Origin: a virus
Length of the DNA: 20,842 bases
Reading direction: 5' to 3' (one strand)
Virus record (IMG/VR): IMGVR_UViG_3300025809_000163
Span: 1-20,842 of that record
The notes beneath the pieces are model-generated. The model was not told where the DNA came from. It did no database searches and worked only from the letters and a program-made list of their open reading frames with translations. Below, piece after piece: positions 1 to 20,825 of the stretch; position 1 is the stretch's first letter, and the number at the start of each line of letters is the position of its first letter. The translations under genes and the position numbers were made by a program.

Positions 1-28
1 GCCTTTCTTCTTCTTCGCACAAGAAGTA

Positions 29-77
29 TAAGCCTTTCCCCGGCTTACTGTAAAGCCCCCGCAATGGGGGTTTTATT
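29..77 (+). terminator. Two tandem hairpins at left edge, second one terminator-like on plus strand
   Basis: The 77 bases left of the HTH gene hold no gene I can support. Hairpin one pairs TAAGCC (29-34) with GGCTTA (42-47) over a 7-base loop. Hairpin two pairs AAAGCCCCC with GGGGGTTTT around the loop GCAAT and is followed by a T-rich stretch on the plus strand. The second stem includes a G:T wobble that becomes an A:C mismatch on the minus strand, so it folds better as plus-strand RNA. It could end a rightward transcript coming from outside the window, or act in both directions at the end of the HTH gene. A minus-strand frame rich in Lys codons is open at the left edge, but it has no start codon in view. 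Confidence 0.45.
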
Positions 78-281
78 TTATTCTCCTTTTAGCTGGCAAA
101 ACTGATCCAGCGTCAAGTCAAATATCTTGCACAATCCCTGCACAGTGTGCAGCTTCATGTTTTCCTGCTTACGCCACTGAAACACTCTCTGGCGGCTTAC
201 GTTCATTAAAGCGGCCAGGCGGCTAGAATTGATGTTATTTAGCTCCTGGGCGGTTATTAAGCACTGTCCTGCATTAGTCAT
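78..281 (-). CDS. Small Cro/C1-type helix-turn-helix regulator
   Basis: A 67-residue protein that is little more than one DNA-binding domain. Residues 18-40 form a helix-turn-helix: SSRLAALMN is the positioning helix, and SRQRVFQWRKQ is the recognition helix with the Trp-Arg-Lys pattern seen in XRE/Cro-type domains. A further helix (about 44-65) closes the fold. No dimerisation or protease-sensitive domain follows, so this resembles Cro more than a full CI repressor. An AGGAA ribosome site lies about 9 bases before the ATG. The gene stands alone, separated from the recombination operon by a 110-nt structured spacer. I infer that it controls phage promoters, and the palindrome at 2020-2031 is the best visible candidate operator. 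The fold is clear; the target is a guess. Confidence 0.8.
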   Translation of the reverse strand: MTNAGQCLITAQELNNINSSRLAALMNVSRQRVFQWRKQENMKLHTVQGLCKIFDLTLDQFCQLKGE

Positions 282-391: not shown

Positions 392-688
392 CTAGAACGG
401 GATGTCTTCATCGAGCTGTTCAATGCTCATATCGGCCTGCTTTGCAGGTGCTGCTGCCTGGCCGTCAGTGTAAATCACCTTCACATTACCCAAGATTGGC
501 GTCTGAACCTTAGCGTCGCGCTCTTCTTTGGTGACCGATTGAGATATAAATCCATTGTTCTCATATTGGTCCTGCTGATCGGTATCTACAAAGGTAGTCA
601 GGTCCAGGTACGTGCCCTTGGCGCCTTTGTACAGTCGTGACTTGTCGATCTTGGTAACATCGATTCGTACAGATAATCCTACTTTCAT
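392..688 (-). CDS. Putative phage single-stranded DNA-binding protein
   Basis: A 98-residue protein that I recognise as a small phage OB-type or ssDNA-binding-like protein, based on its C-terminus and position. Residues 1-75 are mixed beta-type sequence (KVGLSVRIDVTKI, GTYLDLTTFVDT, NVKVIYTDG). A flexible Ala/Pro/Gln linker follows at about 76-90. The protein ends in DEDIPF, like the acidic Asp-Ile-Pro-Phe tip with which bacterial SSBs recruit partner proteins. The ATG overlaps the stop of the upstream YqaJ exonuclease as ATGA, with a GGAG ribosome site, so translation is coupled. In the operon it is the third partner of the annealase and exonuclease, and probably coats the single strands they make and use. 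It is shorter than cellular SSB (about 170-180 residues). Biochemical function is inferred. Confidence 0.72.
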   Translation of the reverse strand: MKVGLSVRIDVTKIDKSRLYKGAKGTYLDLTTFVDTDQQDQYENNGFISQSVTKEERDAKVQTPILGNVKVIYTDGQAAAPAKQADMSIEQLDEDIPF

Positions 689-1284
689 TTTAACTTCTCC
701 ACTTGGTTTAAAATTTCCGCTACGGCCTTATCGACCTCGGCAGACAGTTTTGCGATATAGTCATCATCGCGTTCTACACGCACTAGAACGTGCGGCATTT
801 CTGGATGGTAGGCAAAAAAGTCCCACCAATCACGTTTAGTTATCCACATACAGCCTTGGATTTGCTGCCAGTATTTCTTAACACCGACCTGCGGGTCTCT
901 GAGATAGCTGACCATCGTTTTAGGGGCAGGCGCTTTTATTTCTAAGCCGCCCTCTTCTCCGATCAAACCGTCAGGCGAGCAGCCAAACTCCCAGCTAGTG
1001 TCGAGAATAAAGCCAGTCTCGATTACATCATTGCCAGAAATGAATTCGTAGGACTCCCTAGCCTCTGGCTCAATCTCATTGCCGCGCAGCATCCACTCAG
1101 TAACATGGAAGGGCTCAGAGTGCCCTGTAAGGCGTTCTGCGATCAATTCATTGATGTACCCATCAGCAGAGGTGCTAGGCTTCCCAGTCTGAGTAATTAG
1201 CTTGGAAAACATGCTAGCGGATGGCTTGCCCAGTCTTGCAGCAAGCCACTCTGGTGAACCCTGCTCATGGTCCAGGATGATCAC
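685..1284 (-). CDS. YqaJ-type viral recombinase (lambda-exonuclease-like)
   Basis: A 199-residue nuclease of the YqaJ/lambda exonuclease family (PD-(D/E)XK fold). This family resects double-stranded DNA ends to leave 3' overhangs for an annealase. The N-terminal signature GSPEWLAARLGKPSASMFSK (about 9-28) is typical. The active-site residues are visible: D105 in CSPDGL, and E115 and K117 in GLEIKAP. A Gln/Trp-rich helix follows (YWQQIQGCMWI, 139-148), as in relatives. Length matches the family. The start is GTG, and GTGA overlaps the stop of the ERF gene by four bases; GAGG lies upstream. Paired with ERF upstream and an SSB-like protein downstream, it forms a Red-like recombination set, probably used for genome concatemer formation, repair of cut ends or exchange with other phages. 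Confidence 0.93.
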   Translation of the reverse strand: MIILDHEQGSPEWLAARLGKPSASMFSKLITQTGKPSTSADGYINELIAERLTGHSEPFHVTEWMLRGNEIEPEARESYEFISGNDVIETGFILDTSWEFGCSPDGLIGEEGGLEIKAPAPKTMVSYLRDPQVGVKKYWQQIQGCMWITKRDWWDFFAYHPEMPHVLVRVERDDDYIAKLSAEVDKAVAEILNQVEKLK

Positions 1285-1844
1285 TTCTTAGCCTCTAGCG
1301 CGGCAACAGCGCGGTCATAGTGCATAGCCAGTATCTGATCAACAGAGCGAACCTTCAGCCACTTGCAAAACTTATCGCTGTCGGCACCAGTCTCATCAAG
1401 TAATTTCTTGATGGCTATGATCTGATCATCAGACACAACTTTCTTGTCATCACCGCGCAGCATTGCAGATTCTGCATCATCGTCGGCCGTAGGGATTCCC
1501 GCGATAGACTGCAGGGCGTACCGTCTTGCGTAGGTGATAGCTGACCCTGAAGCCTGGGGGTCTTTCTTAACAGTTGGCAGGGTGTATTCCATCTCTAGCC
1601 ACTGACCTGATATGTGCATCAGGCGCGTAGATACGCCAACACCGTTTTCGTTGCTAACTGGGAACTGCGTGTAGCTCAGGCCGTTATCAGCAAAGGGCTG
1701 CTTGATCGCCTTAATTACAGACGTTAGATCGGCATAGCTTGACTTGAAGAAAGGGTTAGCGCTGTCTTTGACAGCACCCCCCATCTGAGATTGTGCAGCA
1801 CATAGTGCGCTGGCTAGTTCATTGATTGATTCACTTGATTTCAT
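1281..1844 (-). CDS. erf: ERF-family single-strand annealing recombinase
   Basis: A 187-residue ERF superfamily protein. ERF (first known from phage P22) anneals complementary single strands and promotes circularisation or recombination of phage DNA. The core spans about residues 5-125. It contains the early motif NPFFKSSYADLTSVIKAIK (30-48) and the hallmark GSAITYARRYALQSIAGI (100-117) followed by an Asp-rich stretch (DDDAE, 121-125). The C-terminal 60 residues (VSDDQIIAIKKLLDETGAD onward) are a separate helical part that is variable in the family. The ATG is preceded by GGAGG, which lies inside the end of the preceding 51-residue gene; the two genes overlap by 14 bases. The GTG of the YqaJ exonuclease overlaps its stop. 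Family assignment is secure; the exact role in this phage is inferred. Confidence 0.95.
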   Translation of the reverse strand: MKSSESINELASALCAAQSQMGGAVKDSANPFFKSSYADLTSVIKAIKQPFADNGLSYTQFPVSNENGVGVSTRLMHISGQWLEMEYTLPTVKKDPQASGSAITYARRYALQSIAGIPTADDDAESAMLRGDDKKVVSDDQIIAIKKLLDETGADSDKFCKWLKVRSVDQILAMHYDRAVAALEAKK

Positions 1845-1986
1845 GTTGACCTCCTACAGTCTGTTCTTTTGCGTACCGCTCACCATAACCTGCATAGTAA
1901 GCCTCTGATTGCCCGTCTAGGGCTTGATAACCTAAAACGCAGTCATACTCACCGCGTTCCAGATCGTTTAGATCGTTGATTCCCAT
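1831..1986 (-). CDS. Small hypothetical protein leading the recombination operon
   Basis: A 51-residue protein beginning MGINDLNDLERGEYDCVLGY and containing a Tyr/Gly-rich stretch AYYAGYGERYAKEQ (29-42). I know no function. Short peptides with a similar GYGxxYAxEQ pattern occur in phage early regions, which supports reality but not a role. Support is positional: GGAGG seven bases before the ATG, placement as the first gene after the promoter at 2017-2045, and a 14-base overlap with ERF whose ribosome site lies inside this gene. It is acidic to neutral, with no membrane segment, and could be a small regulator or partner of the recombinase. Translation of this ORF may help open the ERF start site. 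Confidence 0.65.
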   Translation of the reverse strand: MGINDLNDLERGEYDCVLGYQALDGQSEAYYAGYGERYAKEQTVGGQHEIK

Positions 1987-2016: not shown

Positions 2017-2045
2017 ATTGTAAAGCTTTACGACTACTCCGTCAA
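2017..2045 (-). promoter_or_regulatory. Near-consensus sigma70 promoter for the recombination operon
   Basis: On the minus strand, TTGACG (2040-2045) and TACAAT (2017-2022) are separated by exactly 17 bases. Each hexamer differs from consensus at one position. The predicted transcript starts near 2010, some 25 bases before the 51-residue gene. The promoter lies in an 80-base spacer directly downstream of the late-operon terminator, as expected for the head of an independent unit. It is the only strong promoter-like sequence I found in the window. Confidence 0.8.
2020..2031. promoter_or_regulatory. Perfect 12-bp palindrome over the -10 box (candidate operator)
   Basis: GTAAAGCTTTAC is a perfect inverted repeat that shares three bases with the -10 hexamer and fills the downstream part of the spacer. 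A dimeric repressor bound here would block RNA polymerase. The HTH protein at 78-281 is the only visible candidate ligand. Occurrence by chance cannot be excluded for a 12-bp palindrome; its position is the argument. Confidence 0.5.
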
Positions 2046-2066: not shown

Positions 2067-2093
2067 AAAAAAAAGCCCCGCACTAGGCAGGGC
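2067..2093 (-). terminator. Intrinsic terminator ending the late operon
   Basis: On the minus strand GCCCTGC (2087-2093) pairs with GCGGGGC (2075-2081), seven pairs with one G:U, around the loop CTAGT. An unbroken run of eight T follows (2067-2074). It lies 17 bases after the endolysin stop and just before the next promoter, so it cleanly separates the late unit from the recombination operon. Confidence 0.93.
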
Positions 2094-2110: not shown

Positions 2111-2455
2111 TCAGTATGACCAGATGACAGGCATTGAGTCCCTTATGTCTACATGGATAAACGTCTTGGCGACCCCTATGCCATTAAACCCCATCTCCTG
2201 GGCGTGCTTAATGATCTGGTATGCCTCGTTGCCATTGTTGATCTTAATGTCTGCGGCAATTCCGCGTGCGTGGGTGCCTGGCTTGGCCTTCGCTTTTTCA
2301 ATGCTGTGGCCTTCTGGATCGCGGTAGCCACTGGTAATGATAAACGGGAACCCGCAAGCATGGCGCAGAGAGTCAAGAGCCCAAAGAAATTCCTCGGACA
2401 TCTCGTTGTTGCCGGTCTCCTGGCAATCAAAGTCTGACAGCTTAAAATAGCGCAT
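2111..2455 (-). CDS. Endolysin, M15-family zinc peptidase
   Basis: A 114-residue, single-domain M15A-type metallopeptidase that should cut peptide bonds in peptidoglycan (D,D- or L,D-type specificity cannot be read from sequence). The active site is complete: H62 and D69 in GTHARGIAAD and H101 in FIHVD are the zinc ligands, and D103 fits the catalytic-side acid. The ITSGYRDP motif (40-47) and N-terminal YFKLSDFDC (3-11) are typical of this phage branch. There is no signal peptide or cell-wall-binding domain, so export needs a holin; the likely one is about 15 kb upstream (16969-17349). The start overlaps the preceding stop as TGATG. It is the last gene of the late unit, followed by the strong terminator. 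Confidence 0.92.
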   Translation of the reverse strand: MRYFKLSDFDCQETGNNEMSEEFLWALDSLRHACGFPFIITSGYRDPEGHSIEKAKAKPGTHARGIAADIKINNGNEAYQIIKHAQEMGFNGIGVAKTFIHVDIRDSMPVIWSY

Positions 2456-11280: not shown

Positions 11281-13617
11281 TTATAATCCCTTGTAAAGCT
11301 CGCCGTATTTCACAGCCTTGTATCCAGACGGGGTAGTAACGACCATCTCAGGCATTACACTCTCAACTTCCTGGGCCATTACACCCAATGTCATGCTACT
11401 GCTTAACCCTTTCTCAACAGCCTCATCATTCCAATCCCAAGTATACAAGCCTAATCCGTTTGGAAGATGGCCTACTTGGTTTATATTGGTTTTAAGACGG
11501 GCGTCGGACATCGCCGCCATCTGAGCGGCCATAGTCATGTAGTCCATAGCGCCAAGGTTTTTCTGCGTGGTTTGACTCTGGGGTATTGGAGCCGCGCCAA
11601 GAGCCTGTGACAGTAATCCGATAGATGTGTACGGAGCCTGCTGGTAGCCCTGGAACTGAGCCTTAGCTGCGTCGATAAGCTGCTGTTGTAGAGCCTGCTG
11701 TAGCATACCCTGCTGCTGTAGGTTCTGGTTAACCGTCTGTCCCATGCCGAAACCAAGGTTAGACAGTGAGCCCAGTTGACCTGCCGCGCCAAGACGCTGC
11801 GATGAGCCAGTAAGACCTGCAGCCTGGTTAGCAAGCTGTGCCTGAAGAGACTGTGAGGCGTTAAACTGTCCAGCCTGGTTAAGTGCTGACTGGTTCGCCA
11901 AAGCCGCCTGATTAGCTGCGCCTGCGCCAAACTGCGATGCCTGGTTAAGCGCTGCCTGATTAGCCAGGGCTGCTTGGTTCGCGGCAGATGCCCCAAACTG
12001 AGAAGCCGCCTGCTGTTGCGCTGACGCCTGGGCCATAGCCTGGTTCTGAGCAGCGGCACCGAATTGTCCTGCCTGATTCAATGCTGCCTGGTTAGCTAAG
12101 GCTGCCTGGTTGGCTGCTGACGCACCGAACTGAGAGGCTGCTTGCTGCTGTGCTGACCTCTGTGCTGCGGCCTGATTAGCTGCTTGAGCACCAAACTGCG
12201 CGGCAGCCTGCTGTTGTGCAGATGCCTGTGCAGCGGCTTGGTTCTGAGCCCCTGCGCCAAACTGTGCCGCTTGATTCGCTGCAGCTTGATTAGCAAGAGC
12301 AGCCTGATTGGCAGCAGATGCGCCAAATTGACTTGCAGCCTGTTGTTGAGCAGATGCTTGCGCTCCAGCGACGTTGCCAGCCTGAGCGCTAAACTGTCGA
12401 GCCTGGTTCTGCGCAGCCTGGTTGGCAAGAGCCGCCTGGTTAGCAGCGGATGCACTAAACTCACCTGCACGCATGCCAGCCGCCTGATTGGCCAGGGCTG
12501 CTTGCTGTGCCAGGTTAGCGCTAGTAGTGCCAGCCTGTAGACCCGCCTGCTGGTTAGCAAGGCTAGCCTGCATTCTGCCAGCAATGTCTTGTTGCGCCAT
12601 GCCCTGGGCTTGAGTAAATCCAGCCTGACGTAACTGACCTGCAGATCGTGCGGCCTGTTCGGCAAATGCGCGATTAGTCTCGGCCTCCATCAAAGCCTGT
12701 CGAGAGCCACCAAAAGCACCTGCTGCGCTTGCTTGAGCTCCAGCTTGGCCCATTGATATCTGTCGGGCGCGATCTAGGTCAGACAGTGTAGACTGCACAA
12801 CCTGGCTTTCATAAGGGTTGTAATACTGACTTAGGTCAGTGCCAGCTAATTGGCCAGCCGTCACATCTCTGGACGTTACTGTCGGTGCGCCGCCTAATCT
12901 TTCTGCGCCGAATCCAGTTGCCCCAGTGCGAGCAGCGTCATAACCCTGAGCGCCGAGTCCAGCAGCCTGGAATCCAGTAGCGCCTGCACGCTCTGCGCCA
13001 TAGCCCTGAGCGCCTAGCCCAGCAGCTTGGAAGCCCTGAGAGCCAACATCTGCGGCACCAAAGCCAGTGGCTCCAGCCTGAGCTGCACCATAGCCTGTTG
13101 CGCCTACATCAGCACCCTGGAACCCTCTAGCGCCAGCTTGTGCCGCGCCGTAACCTTGTGCGCCAGTCTGAGTTGCCCGATAGCCAGGAGACCGCACGTT
13201 CATGGGCTGATAGTTCATCTCTCTAGCAGCGCCAGCCATAGCGCCCTGAATACCCTGCGCGGCACTCTGATTAATATTTGGAGCTTGCGGAGCTTGCTGT
13301 TGCTGCTGCTGTACGCGACCGCCAGCTTTACCGCCGCCACCAGGCCGTCCGGCAGAATCCAGCACTTGCGGCATAACGGGAGGCGCCAGCTTAGGTCCAG
13401 ACTGTGGCGTAGGAGTCCTTTTGACAATTAAATCGCTTGGCGGCCTTACAGGGCCTCCTACATTCATTACATTCTCATCTTGCGGTACTGGGCGCTGTCC
13501 TGGCGGTTCCGTTACTGACGGGCCATAGTTAACCTGAGATGGGGATATAGGGCCAGGCTGCATTCTTTGCTGTCCAGCCATGCCTACTTGTTGTGGTACA
13601 CCGTTACCTGAAGCCAT
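11281..13617 (-). CDS. 778-residue repeat protein with C-terminal S74 (intramolecular chaperone) domain
   Basis: Likely a long virion fibre or tail appendage. Layout: Pro/Gln-rich N-terminus (1-140); nine 10-residue repeats of form xGAxG(Y/F)xxxx (151-240) preceded by a degenerate one; a helical linker (about 250-340); ten 22-residue Ala/Gln/Asn repeats in perfect register (386-605), with two degenerate units before them (342, 364); a Gln/Leu-rich helical region; and a short S74 domain from S704-D705 (MSDARLKTNINQV) through GVMAQEVESVMP to the end. S74 domains trimerise and fold phage fibres, then often cut themselves off at the Ser-Asp site. Here only about 75 residues remain, shorter than in endosialidases. 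Strong GGAGG ribosome site; TAATG overlap with the gene before. Fibre role is inferred from S74 and repeats. Confidence 0.75.
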   Translation of the reverse strand: MASGNGVPQQVGMAGQQRMQPGPISPSQVNYGPSVTEPPGQRPVPQDENVMNVGGPVRPPSDLIVKRTPTPQSGPKLAPPVMPQVLDSAGRPGGGGKAGGRVQQQQQQAPQAPNINQSAAQGIQGAMAGAAREMNYQPMNVRSPGYRATQTGAQGYGAAQAGARGFQGADVGATGYGAAQAGATGFGAADVGSQGFQAAGLGAQGYGAERAGATGFQAAGLGAQGYDAARTGATGFGAERLGGAPTVTSRDVTAGQLAGTDLSQYYNPYESQVVQSTLSDLDRARQISMGQAGAQASAAGAFGGSRQALMEAETNRAFAEQAARSAGQLRQAGFTQAQGMAQQDIAGRMQASLANQQAGLQAGTTSANLAQQAALANQAAGMRAGEFSASAANQAALANQAAQNQARQFSAQAGNVAGAQASAQQQAASQFGASAANQAALANQAAANQAAQFGAGAQNQAAAQASAQQQAAAQFGAQAANQAAAQRSAQQQAASQFGASAANQAALANQAALNQAGQFGAAAQNQAMAQASAQQQAASQFGASAANQAALANQAALNQASQFGAGAANQAALANQSALNQAGQFNASQSLQAQLANQAAGLTGSSQRLGAAGQLGSLSNLGFGMGQTVNQNLQQQGMLQQALQQQLIDAAKAQFQGYQQAPYTSIGLLSQALGAAPIPQSQTTQKNLGAMDYMTMAAQMAAMSDARLKTNINQVGHLPNGLGLYTWDWNDEAVEKGLSSSMTLGVMAQEVESVMPEMVVTTPSGYKAVKYGELYKGL
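11284..11508 (-). other. S74 intramolecular chaperone domain (second copy in window)
   Basis: Residues 704-778 of the repeat protein. Ser-Asp at the domain start, RLKTNI, WDWNDEA and GVMAQEVESVMPEMV are the S74 landmarks, matched by SDEREKKNI and [14 protein letters not shown] in the tail fibre at 18717-20825. The copy stops directly after the core, without the helical tail seen in that other protein. Confidence 0.8.
11803..12462 (-). repeat. Ten tandem 66-bp units (22-residue coding repeats)
   Basis: Ten units of exactly 66 bases, each beginning (Q/E)F, with no insertion or deletion. Two unit types recur: one with ASAANQAALANQAALNQ, the other with AGAQNQAAAQASAQQQ. Their order is A-B-A-B-B-A-B-A-A plus a diverged last unit. 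The 22-residue length equals two 11-residue (hendecad) helical repeats. Two degenerate units extend the array upstream to 12594. Confidence 0.93.
12898..13167 (-). repeat. Nine tandem 30-bp units (decapeptide coding repeats)
   Basis: Nine 10-residue units such as AGATGFGAAD, LGAQGYGAER and VGSQGFQAAG in perfect register (protein residues 151-240). A weaker unit, VRSPGYRATQ, precedes them. The fixed features are Gly-Ala at positions 2-3, Gly at 5, Tyr or Phe at 6 and Ala at 8. This is a different repeat class from the 22-residue array in the same protein. Confidence 0.92.
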
Positions 13618-18716: not shown

Positions 18717-20825
18717 CTAGTTGTTTTCAAGTTCTGTTACGCGAGCTTCTAGTGTTTCAATGCGGGTCTGTGCTTCTTGAAGTGCCTTGATAGCCATCCA
18801 CACCATCTGCTGTTCTTTAACAGCCATACGAGTAGTGTCATCACCTACTTTAAACTCACCGATAAGTTCTGGGTTGTGAGTTTCTACTTCTTGAGCAATA
18901 ACACCTAACTTCTTGTTATCTGAATCAGCGTCAGCGTTGTAATGAAACTTCTTTAAGCTCCATTGCTTTAATGAATCCCATTGAGATTCTAAAAGTTCAA
19001 TGTTTTTCTTTTCACGCTCGTCTGATAGGTTTACGTTGTTTCCGCTATAGTTATATATGCCACCATTGGCATTAACATAAAACTTATAAGCATTTGTATC
19101 GTGTAATAAAAAAGTATTTCCGCTAGGAAGTGTAGAAATCACTTCTCCAGTATCTTCAATTATTAAGCCTCTGCTTGCGGTAGAAGTAGAAGTCTTCCCC
19201 ACAAGCAAGTTGCCACTTGAGTCTATGCGCATGCGTTCTGTTGTGCCGTTTGTTCTAAAGATTAAATTCTTACTATTGTCAGCATATATATCAGCAAGAG
19301 TATTGTTTGTTATATTTTCAAACTTCAACACTGCATTATTTGTTGTTGACCCAGTAATTGCTACTTCAGCATCTCCAGATGAAGATTGAATATCTAATTC
19401 GTAGCTAGGCGAACTAGTACCAATACCCACGTTACCGCTATAGTTTATGACCAGATTGTCAGCACCTCTAGTACCAAGCCTAAGAGTAGTGCCTCCAAAA
19501 TTGCTATTGTTAAGCAATCTCATGCTGTCATCTGATTGGTCATAGGTGATAGAGCCTAGAGTTCCAGTAGTGACGCCTGACGCTTCTATACCAAGAATTG
19601 TCTCATTGGATGCAGTGGCTTTCTTTATTTCAAGCCTGCCGTCAATTGCGGAAGTACCAATACCCACATTACCGCTGGCGTCTATGCGCATACGTTCTGC
19701 GCCGCCAGTAAACATAGCCATGTTGCCGTTATTGTTCTGAAATACAGTTGTCCCACCAGTGGTTATTTGATAAAAATTAGTTAACGTAGACTGGGATTCA
19801 ACTTTTAAATTATCAGCCGCACCTCCTCCGTTTACTTCCAGAGTAAAAGTAGGTGAACTAGTACCAATACCCACATTCCCGCTGGAGTCTATGCGCATGC
19901 GTTCATCAGAGCCTGTGTAAAACTGCATAGAGTTGTCACCGTGGTAAAACTGGATTAATCCACGGTACTGCTCTGTTGTGTTTGTCCCGTCTGCAAAAGC
20001 AAGCCTACCATATCCGTTAGTGCTGCTATAACAGGTGACACCCGCATCACTAGAACCTCCGCCTATCACTAAATGGGGGGAAGTGCTTAGGTAATTAAAA
20101 CTACTAGGCGATGTAGTCCCCACGCCCACATTACCGCTGGAGTCTAGCGTCATTTGGGGCGATGAAGAAGCATTCGTTCTAAAGTTTAATGAGTTATCGC
20201 TGTGTGCGTAATTTATTTGTCCTCTGAACCTATCGTCACCGCTTGTACCATCAGCAAAGTAAATAGTTCCTGAGTTGGTAGTGCCTGAGTATATGGTCAT
20301 ACCTTCAGTGCCAGAGCCGCTACCAATAACTAAATTATTAGCACCTCCGTCCATGCTAGACGCAACAGTGTTACCAATACCCACGGAGCCGCTGGAGGAT
20401 ATGCGCATGCGTTCTGCGCTGGCTGTGTAATCAAAAAACTTTAATGCACTGCCGCCGTTTTGTATGGCAAATATCTTGCTAGTGTTTGTGTCATTAAAAA
20501 CAACACCAATATTTTTAGAAGCTCCAGACCCTTGAATGTTTAGCAGGTTTACATCGGTAATTGTAGAGCCGCCAATACCCGCGTTACCATCAACAGTAAG
20601 CCCATCCATCGTAGCTGTGCCAGTAACGTCTATGCCTGTGGAGGTGGTTGTCAATTTAGCGCTGTCAGTGTGTTTTAGCGTAGCCGCACCCGACTTACCC
20701 TGGATAGAGTCAACGGTCGTGTCTAGAGTGTCCAGGTTGGTGTTTATCTTGGTTCCCCAAGTATCTTCTGAAGCGCCGACTTCTGGCTTGGTCAGACCAT
20801 AATTGGTTGTAGTTGTATCAGCCAT
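18717..20825 (-). CDS. Tail fibre protein with S74 intramolecular chaperone
   Basis: A 702-residue receptor-binding fibre. The N-terminus [20 protein letters not shown] (7-26), then [15 protein letters not shown], is a common phage fibre attachment motif. Residues about 60-600 are Gly/Ser/Thr/Asn-rich beta sequence with a recurring hinge of type [18 protein letters not shown] at about 138, 225, 308, 377, 455 and 530. An S74 domain begins at S601-D602 ([34 protein letters not shown]) and runs to about 680. A coiled coil ([19 protein letters not shown]) ends it. S74 domains drive trimer folding and are commonly released by self-cleavage at the Ser-Asp. A GGAGG ribosome site lies eight bases before the ATG, at the window edge. 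It is the first late gene seen. Confidence 0.93.
19202..20412 (-). repeat. Dispersed imperfect direct repeats in the tail fibre gene
   Basis: Segments of roughly 30-50 bases encoding the (ERMRI)[13 protein letters not shown] hinge recur at about 19202-19240, 19410-19450, 19645-19700, 19860-19905, 20108-20153 and 20365-20412, with close DNA identity between several copies (for example the stretch encoding GNVGIGT and ERMRI). They divide the fibre into modules of 70-90 residues and are natural sites for unequal recombination. Confidence 0.75.

Follow-up and report, generated by a model that had tools for sequence, protein, structure and literature searches.

A candidate autoregulatory link between a Cro-like protein and its operon's early promoter in a marine SU10-like phage

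In the virus DNA analysed here (a 20,842-base IMG/VR virus record, hereinafter the window), a sigma-70-type promoter, P1, heads an early operon that ends with the gene for a 67-aa Cro-like helix-turn-helix (HTH) protein, and comparison with relatives reveals that the word GTAAAG in P1 goes with one type of this protein. Judging from these sequences, the Cro-like protein probably binds GTAAAG half-sites and turns down its own early operon. What is informative is the half-site, through its link to the HTH type; the palindrome that the half-sites form in the window is a feature of one clade. If true, this is a very small circuit (one 67-aa protein, one promoter) in abundant, little studied marine phages, and one that would explain a limit on the dose of annealase and exonuclease during infection. 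The relatives would then form a natural series for following joint changes of regulator specificity and operator, as well as a change of operator geometry under a constant recognition helix.

The early operon and its Cro-like protein

A profile search identifies SU10-type capsid and portal proteins of a tailed phage in the window; the closest named capsid protein is that of Octadecabacter Antarctic DB virus 2 (66% identical). Every named gene is on the minus strand. The window also encodes two long proteins with repeats, namely a 702-aa tail-fibre-like protein (18717-20825), in which SSGNVGIGT-type motifs recur and which has a Peptidase_S74 chaperone domain, and a 778-aa A/Q/N-rich protein (11281-13617) with many degenerate repeats (NQAALANQAA), the C-terminal stretch of which (SDARLKTNI...) resembles an S74 chaperone by eye only.

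The gene for an M15 endolysin (2455..2111) is followed by a terminator, P1, and a series of genes on the minus strand: a 51-aa open reading frame (orf51, 1831..1986, the first operon gene in the window), an ERF single-strand annealing protein (187 aa, 1281..1844; PF04404, E=3.8e-24; phrog_2324), a YqaJ-type recombination exonuclease (199 aa, 685..1284; PF09588, E=4.6e-21; phrog_149), a 98-aa protein (392..688; phrog_24909), and the HTH protein (78..281). For orf51, an ORF call, there is no match in Pfam (E<=0.1), PHROG (E<=0.01) or NCBIfam (E<=1); for the 98-aa protein, gene position alone suggests an SSB-like function. The profile matches of ERF, YqaJ and HTH, along with the gene order, bear out the original prediction that P1 heads a recombination operon with a Cro-like gene 1.7 kb downstream (the HTH gene, 281..78, starts 1.74 kb downstream of the P1 -10 box). 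By gene order, the regulator gene is located within the operon read from P1; its putative operator is assigned by association. Many relatives carry extra genes between the promoter and orf51, and therefore the promoter heads a variable early operon: the recombination genes are indeed part of what it reads, but in relatives the operon is longer, with variable cargo, and not devoted to recombination alone. The cargo slot between the P1 leader and orf51 holds differing small genes in relatives (L002-L137) and is empty in the window and in L007.

The HTH protein is of the Cro/C1 type, as predicted: it belongs to the Pfam HTH_26 family (PF13443, E=1.8e-6; 28.5 bits against a curated cut-off of 22). 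An AlphaFold2 model (pLDDT 91.9) is all-helical, with a predicted five-helix fold (residues 4-14, 19-26, 30-38, 44-54 and 58-62), in which helices 2-3 form the helix-turn-helix and residues 30-38 are the modelled recognition helix. Foldseek matches of the model include C.BclI, C.AhdI, SinR and P22 c2 (best E 1.4e-3). Each of the 9 records tested encodes a single HTH_26 protein; the HTH_3 profile finds the same gene, plus one weak second match in G024 only. Accordingly, no second, divergent Cro/CI-type gene with shared operators, as in a lambda-type switch, is seen among the HTH_26 genes of these 9 records. The tyrosine integrase profile PF00589, used as the sign of a temperate phage, matches in none of the 9 records, which are possibly incomplete, compared with 14/14 control genomes. 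With one HTH_26 gene per record and no tyrosine integrase, the circuit would thus be Cro without CI. A scan of genome contigs and phage records detects no homologs in cultured phages or genomes, and no publication on this phage system is among the matches listed from one open library, which does not prove absence.

Promoter P1 and its palindrome

P1, the predicted promoter of the early/recombination operon (2017..2045, minus strand), was identified from the sequence and by a promoter scan. It consists of TTGACG (2045-2040), a 17-nt spacer (2039-2023), inside the 16-18 nt range of a sigma-70 promoter, and TACAAT (2022-2017), and matches the sigma-70 consensus at 10 of 12 positions, so that its description as near-ideal is confirmed. 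The overlap of a palindrome with the -10 box is confirmed as well: GTAAAGCTTTAC (2020-2031) is a perfect 12-bp palindrome that covers TAC, half of the -10 box, and can be read as two back-to-back (everted) GTAAAG half-sites, a candidate operator. Directly upstream of P1, the scan detects an intrinsic terminator-like hairpin with 8 T (GCCCTGCCTAGTGCGGGGC, 2075..2093, minus strand), the putative end of the late (endolysin) transcript. In relatives, P1 is preceded by the conserved unit GGGGCTTTTTTTTGCC, and the arrangement of terminator, promoter and leader (CCTCAATCAA or similar) is widespread.

By counts alone, P1 and its palindrome could be chance: a 4-kb stretch contains 5 promoter-like sites where shuffled sequence gives 3.7 +/- 1.9, and the whole window has 2 perfect palindromes of at least 12 bp where 4.96 are expected from mononucleotide shuffles. 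By hand arithmetic from the shuffle expectation, the probability that a chance 12-bp palindrome touches the 29-bp P1 is about 1%. The two elements are taken to be more than chance because of their position, the conservation of the terminator-promoter unit in relatives, and the association with the HTH type described below.

The conservation of the palindrome itself can be traced in relatives collected by searches with the ERF, HTH and endolysin proteins (80, 55 and 80 loci, respectively). The exact pattern TTGACN9GTAAAGCTTTACAAT occurs in 11 further viral contigs, and the 12 records including the window form a tight clade; the HTH gene is in view in 9 of the 12, and it is of the window's type in all 9. 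Conversely, 11 records show both P1 and an HTH protein at least 95% identical to that of the window; the palindrome is present in 9 of them and missing from 2 (L037 and L038, one lineage). Because the records that carry it are near-identical in this region, the palindrome's own conservation is weak evidence. Conservation of the palindrome as such is not supported: it is confined to this one clade and is not kept in relatives that retain the promoter, where the half-site GTAAAG is what persists. A palindrome directly upstream of ERF is seen only in the window and in L007, but its absence from that position elsewhere was rejected as a refutation, given that variable cargo separates P1 and ERF.

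The suggested search for similar sites at other promoters gives no match to GTAAAGCTTTAC with at most 1 mismatch besides P1, either in the window or in two relatives of about 34 kb, each of which holds a single copy (sites with 2 mismatches do occur); the idea of a genome-wide regulon of such sites was therefore rejected. Everted sites with wider spacing are likewise found only at P1 in the window-type genomes.

The half-site GTAAAG and the type of HTH protein

In the wider relatives, where the HTH gene lies 1-2.5 kb downstream of P1, the slot about 1 kb after ERF holds either a type-1 HTH protein (72-100% identical to that of the window, with the helix SRQRVFQWR) or a type-2 protein (35-48%, with the helix SPQQVLRWR). 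When all hexamers are scanned with no prior choice, CTTTAC/GTAAAG is the best separator of the promoters by HTH type. In the first set of distinct loci, GTAAAG is present in P1 of 24/25 type-1 and 0/23 type-2 loci; after two more searches, GTAAAG/CTTTAC is present in 26/27 and 0/26, respectively. These counts leave out loci without ERF or with ERF identity below 70% (first set) or 60% (larger set), as well as loci without an HTH match downstream of ERF or without the GGGG(C/T)TTTTT terminator before P1. Identical rows were merged; the first set comprises 53 distinct rows, of which the 48 with the HTH gene in view were used in the association and tree tests.

The flanking and intervening genes serve as a control for the phage backbone. 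Endolysins of one family precede P1 of both kinds, and neither the endolysin upstream nor ERF downstream follows the type split as P1 does; ERF, located between P1 and the HTH gene, recombines freely. On the ERF tree, the HTH type changes 8 times, GTAAAG changes 8 times, and the two jointly 9 times, whereas the lowest value in 200 shuffles is 18. Of 8 branch-disjoint pairs on the best ERF tree, 7 agree, none is opposite, and one (L037) shows no difference, so that a two-sided sign test on the 7/7 agreeing pairs, calculated by hand, gives 0.016. When the count is restricted to well-supported branches, 2-3 independent pairs remain, a number that does not suffice for a test. The association on the tree is therefore good but not conclusive.

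The recognition helix is identical in the window and most sister lineages, and the same half-site is therefore expected in them. Two groups deserve mention. L037 and L038, members of one recombinant lineage, go against the association: the HTH protein is 95.5% identical to that of the window and P1 lacks GTAAAG. In L181, L185 and L187, which have no recognised terminator and were treated apart from the counts, the ends of the HTH protein are type-1-like, the helix is QPQQVMRWRK, and GTAAAG is absent from the region before ERF, which speaks for the association. The proposal of a self-contained switch between the HTH protein and P1 is supported in part: promoter sequence and HTH type co-vary, but the palindrome is not conserved and L037/L038 lack the word. 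In one recombinant, L130 (5347-5480), the DNA matches the window through TTGAC of the -35 box and from there on is that of a type-2 promoter; this locus combines an ERF that clusters with type-2 phages and an HTH protein of type 1.

Site geometry, rival explanations and known regulators

In most sister type-1 promoters, the half-sites form an inverted dyad with 3-4 bp between them (CTTTACATTGTAAAG or CTTTACATATGTAAAG), the left half of which is the -35 box; in some sister promoters, the left half is decayed (CTTGACGCTGTAAAG). In the window clade, GTAAAG is located 6 bp nearer to the -10 box than in the sisters, and its mirror lies over the -10 box, so that the pair is everted. The inverted form CTTTAC-N1-5-GTAAAG is absent from the window and from the ~34-kb relatives G001 and G002. 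The type-1 genomes G015, G016 and G018 each contain exactly two copies of the inverted dyad. One is at P1; the other, as CTTTACTGAGTAAAG, covers the -35 box of P3, a promoter located after a terminator and ahead of the terminase genes (L392, G016 13944; L393, G018 12780), which suggests control of late genes, too, by this regulator in the sister phages. Window-type genomes have no second dyad site, and their late promoters lack GTAAAG.

Under the favoured reading, the window belongs to a marine SU10-like tailed phage with P1 as its early promoter, from which host RNA polymerase would read through ERF, the exonuclease and the 98-aa protein to the 67-aa Cro-like protein. The latter would recognise GTAAAG, present in the window as two back-to-back half-sites (GTAAAGCTTTAC) over the spacer and -10 box, and in sister lineages as an inverted dyad over the P1 -35 box, in some of them also at the late promoter. 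The bound protein would keep the polymerase off and lower operon expression once enough had been made, a Cro-style negative feedback for which no CI partner is known. The sequences establish the promoter, the operon, the fold class, a single such gene per record and the link between half-site and HTH type. We infer repression because the candidate sites overlap promoter boxes; the binding, the timing, and the working of the flipped arrangement in the window, are likewise extrapolated from sequence. This is a known kind of circuit. A bolder version, which we regard as rather unlikely, is that in a freely recombining early operon the two end elements, P1 and the HTH gene, act as a single switch, coupled and exchangeable, that comes in several specificities (SRQR paired with GTAAAG, the PQQ types with other operators), similar to immunity groups but in phages without a detected integrase. 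The operator would then have been rebuilt under a constant helix, with the half-sites moving from an inverted dyad over the -35 box to an everted pair over the -10 box and either orientation tolerated. The difference in geometry also counts against the favoured reading, since a rigid dimer of the Cro type would be expected to fit one arrangement, inverted or everted, and not the other. So do the L037/L038 lineage, the missing inverted dyad in the window, G001 and G002, the late promoters of window-type genomes, and the word kept at P2 in L181 and L187 (see below).

It is conceivable, albeit doubtful, that the HTH protein acts on P1 via GTAAAG but the palindrome of the window clade is incidental, with one half-site used and the mirror CTTTAC made up of TACAAT plus chance. 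In L067-like and L120/L121 promoters, the right half TGTAAAG alone survives, and the left half has turned into a -35 box TTGACG; furthermore, TACAAT fixes three bases of the palindrome, and the shuffles indicate that 12-bp palindromes are not rare. However, CTT occupies NNN in 11/11 family members found with GTAAAGNNNTACAAT, although these sequences are near-identical. The protein might instead activate P1 or P3, given that C proteins of related fold and P22 c2 can activate and that the P3 dyads precede late genes, but this appears improbable, considering that the dyads overlap the -35 or -10 box itself, a position rarely used by activators of this class.

Two explanations remain. Promoter and HTH type could be linked only through a common phage backbone, with the HTH protein acting elsewhere, e.g., at P2 (see below) or on the host, and leaving P1 unregulated. 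The uncoupling of the two in L037/L038 without evident loss, the small number of well-supported independent switches, and a similar link between the HTH type and the kind of P2 are compatible with this explanation; nevertheless, it is unlikely, because neither the upstream endolysin nor the ERF within the operon shows the split in the way P1 does, and type-1 genomes carry the dyad a second time, at another promoter. That GTAAAG is the target of a host regulator, with the HTH type marking host range, gains some room from the lack of a known host (the scan of genome contigs and phage records yields no HTH relative) but leaves the co-change with the HTH recognition helix unexplained, and we consider it very improbable.

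P2 is a promoter-like sequence of uncertain role detected by the scan immediately after the HTH gene (25..55, minus strand; TTTACA-18-TATACT, with a hairpin in the spacer). A CTTTAC word (50-55) covers its -35 box and is kept also in L181 and L187, in which the helix differs. An operator common to P1 and P2 is not convincing, given that the P2 word is partly terminator tail and -35 box and persists with another helix type. In all type-1 relatives, the region 3' of the HTH gene (1-76 in the window, minus strand; 16000-16530 in L217) contains a terminator followed by P2 with a dyad in its spacer, and beyond it about 430 nt without an evident gene, partly common to type-2 phages (GTATTCGGGCTAGAGGCTGACGG...), that possibly represent a new structured RNA. 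There is no Rfam match for the stretch at E<=1, and the single-sequence stem count is mixed; strong covariation is not confirmed by RNAalifold, which predicts 11 pairs in the first 142 nt, none with a compensatory change.

Among known regulators, the best fold matches of the HTH model are the restriction-modification controller proteins (C.BclI, C.AhdI, C.Esp1396I), which are small autoregulators; in this case, however, no restriction-modification genes are seen in the window, and the HTH gene is not in a C-R-M operon. The only sequence relative in the PDB, and a weak one (E=0.075), is the 66-aa CylR2 from Enterococcus faecalis, which has a beta-sheet, unlike the all-helical model. Lambdoid and telomere phages encode lytic Cro repressors that are similar in being small single-domain Cro/C1 HTH proteins of an early operon with a palindromic candidate operator in the promoter; the differences are that neither a CI gene nor an integrase is found here and that the protein, with its 67 aa, is all-helical in the model. 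For Cro of the telomere phage PY54, a single 16-bp operator is on record, a likeness to the window, and this Cro is reported not to repress its own synthesis, unlike the present case, in which the protein's own early promoter carries the candidate operator (PMC4488713). SinR from Bacillus subtilis, a fold neighbour of the model, differs in its length of 111 aa, its oligomerisation domain and its partner SinI, neither of the latter two being present here. It resembles the present system in the reported use of one short motif in several orientations at promoters, with single sites bound about tenfold more weakly (PMC3163267).
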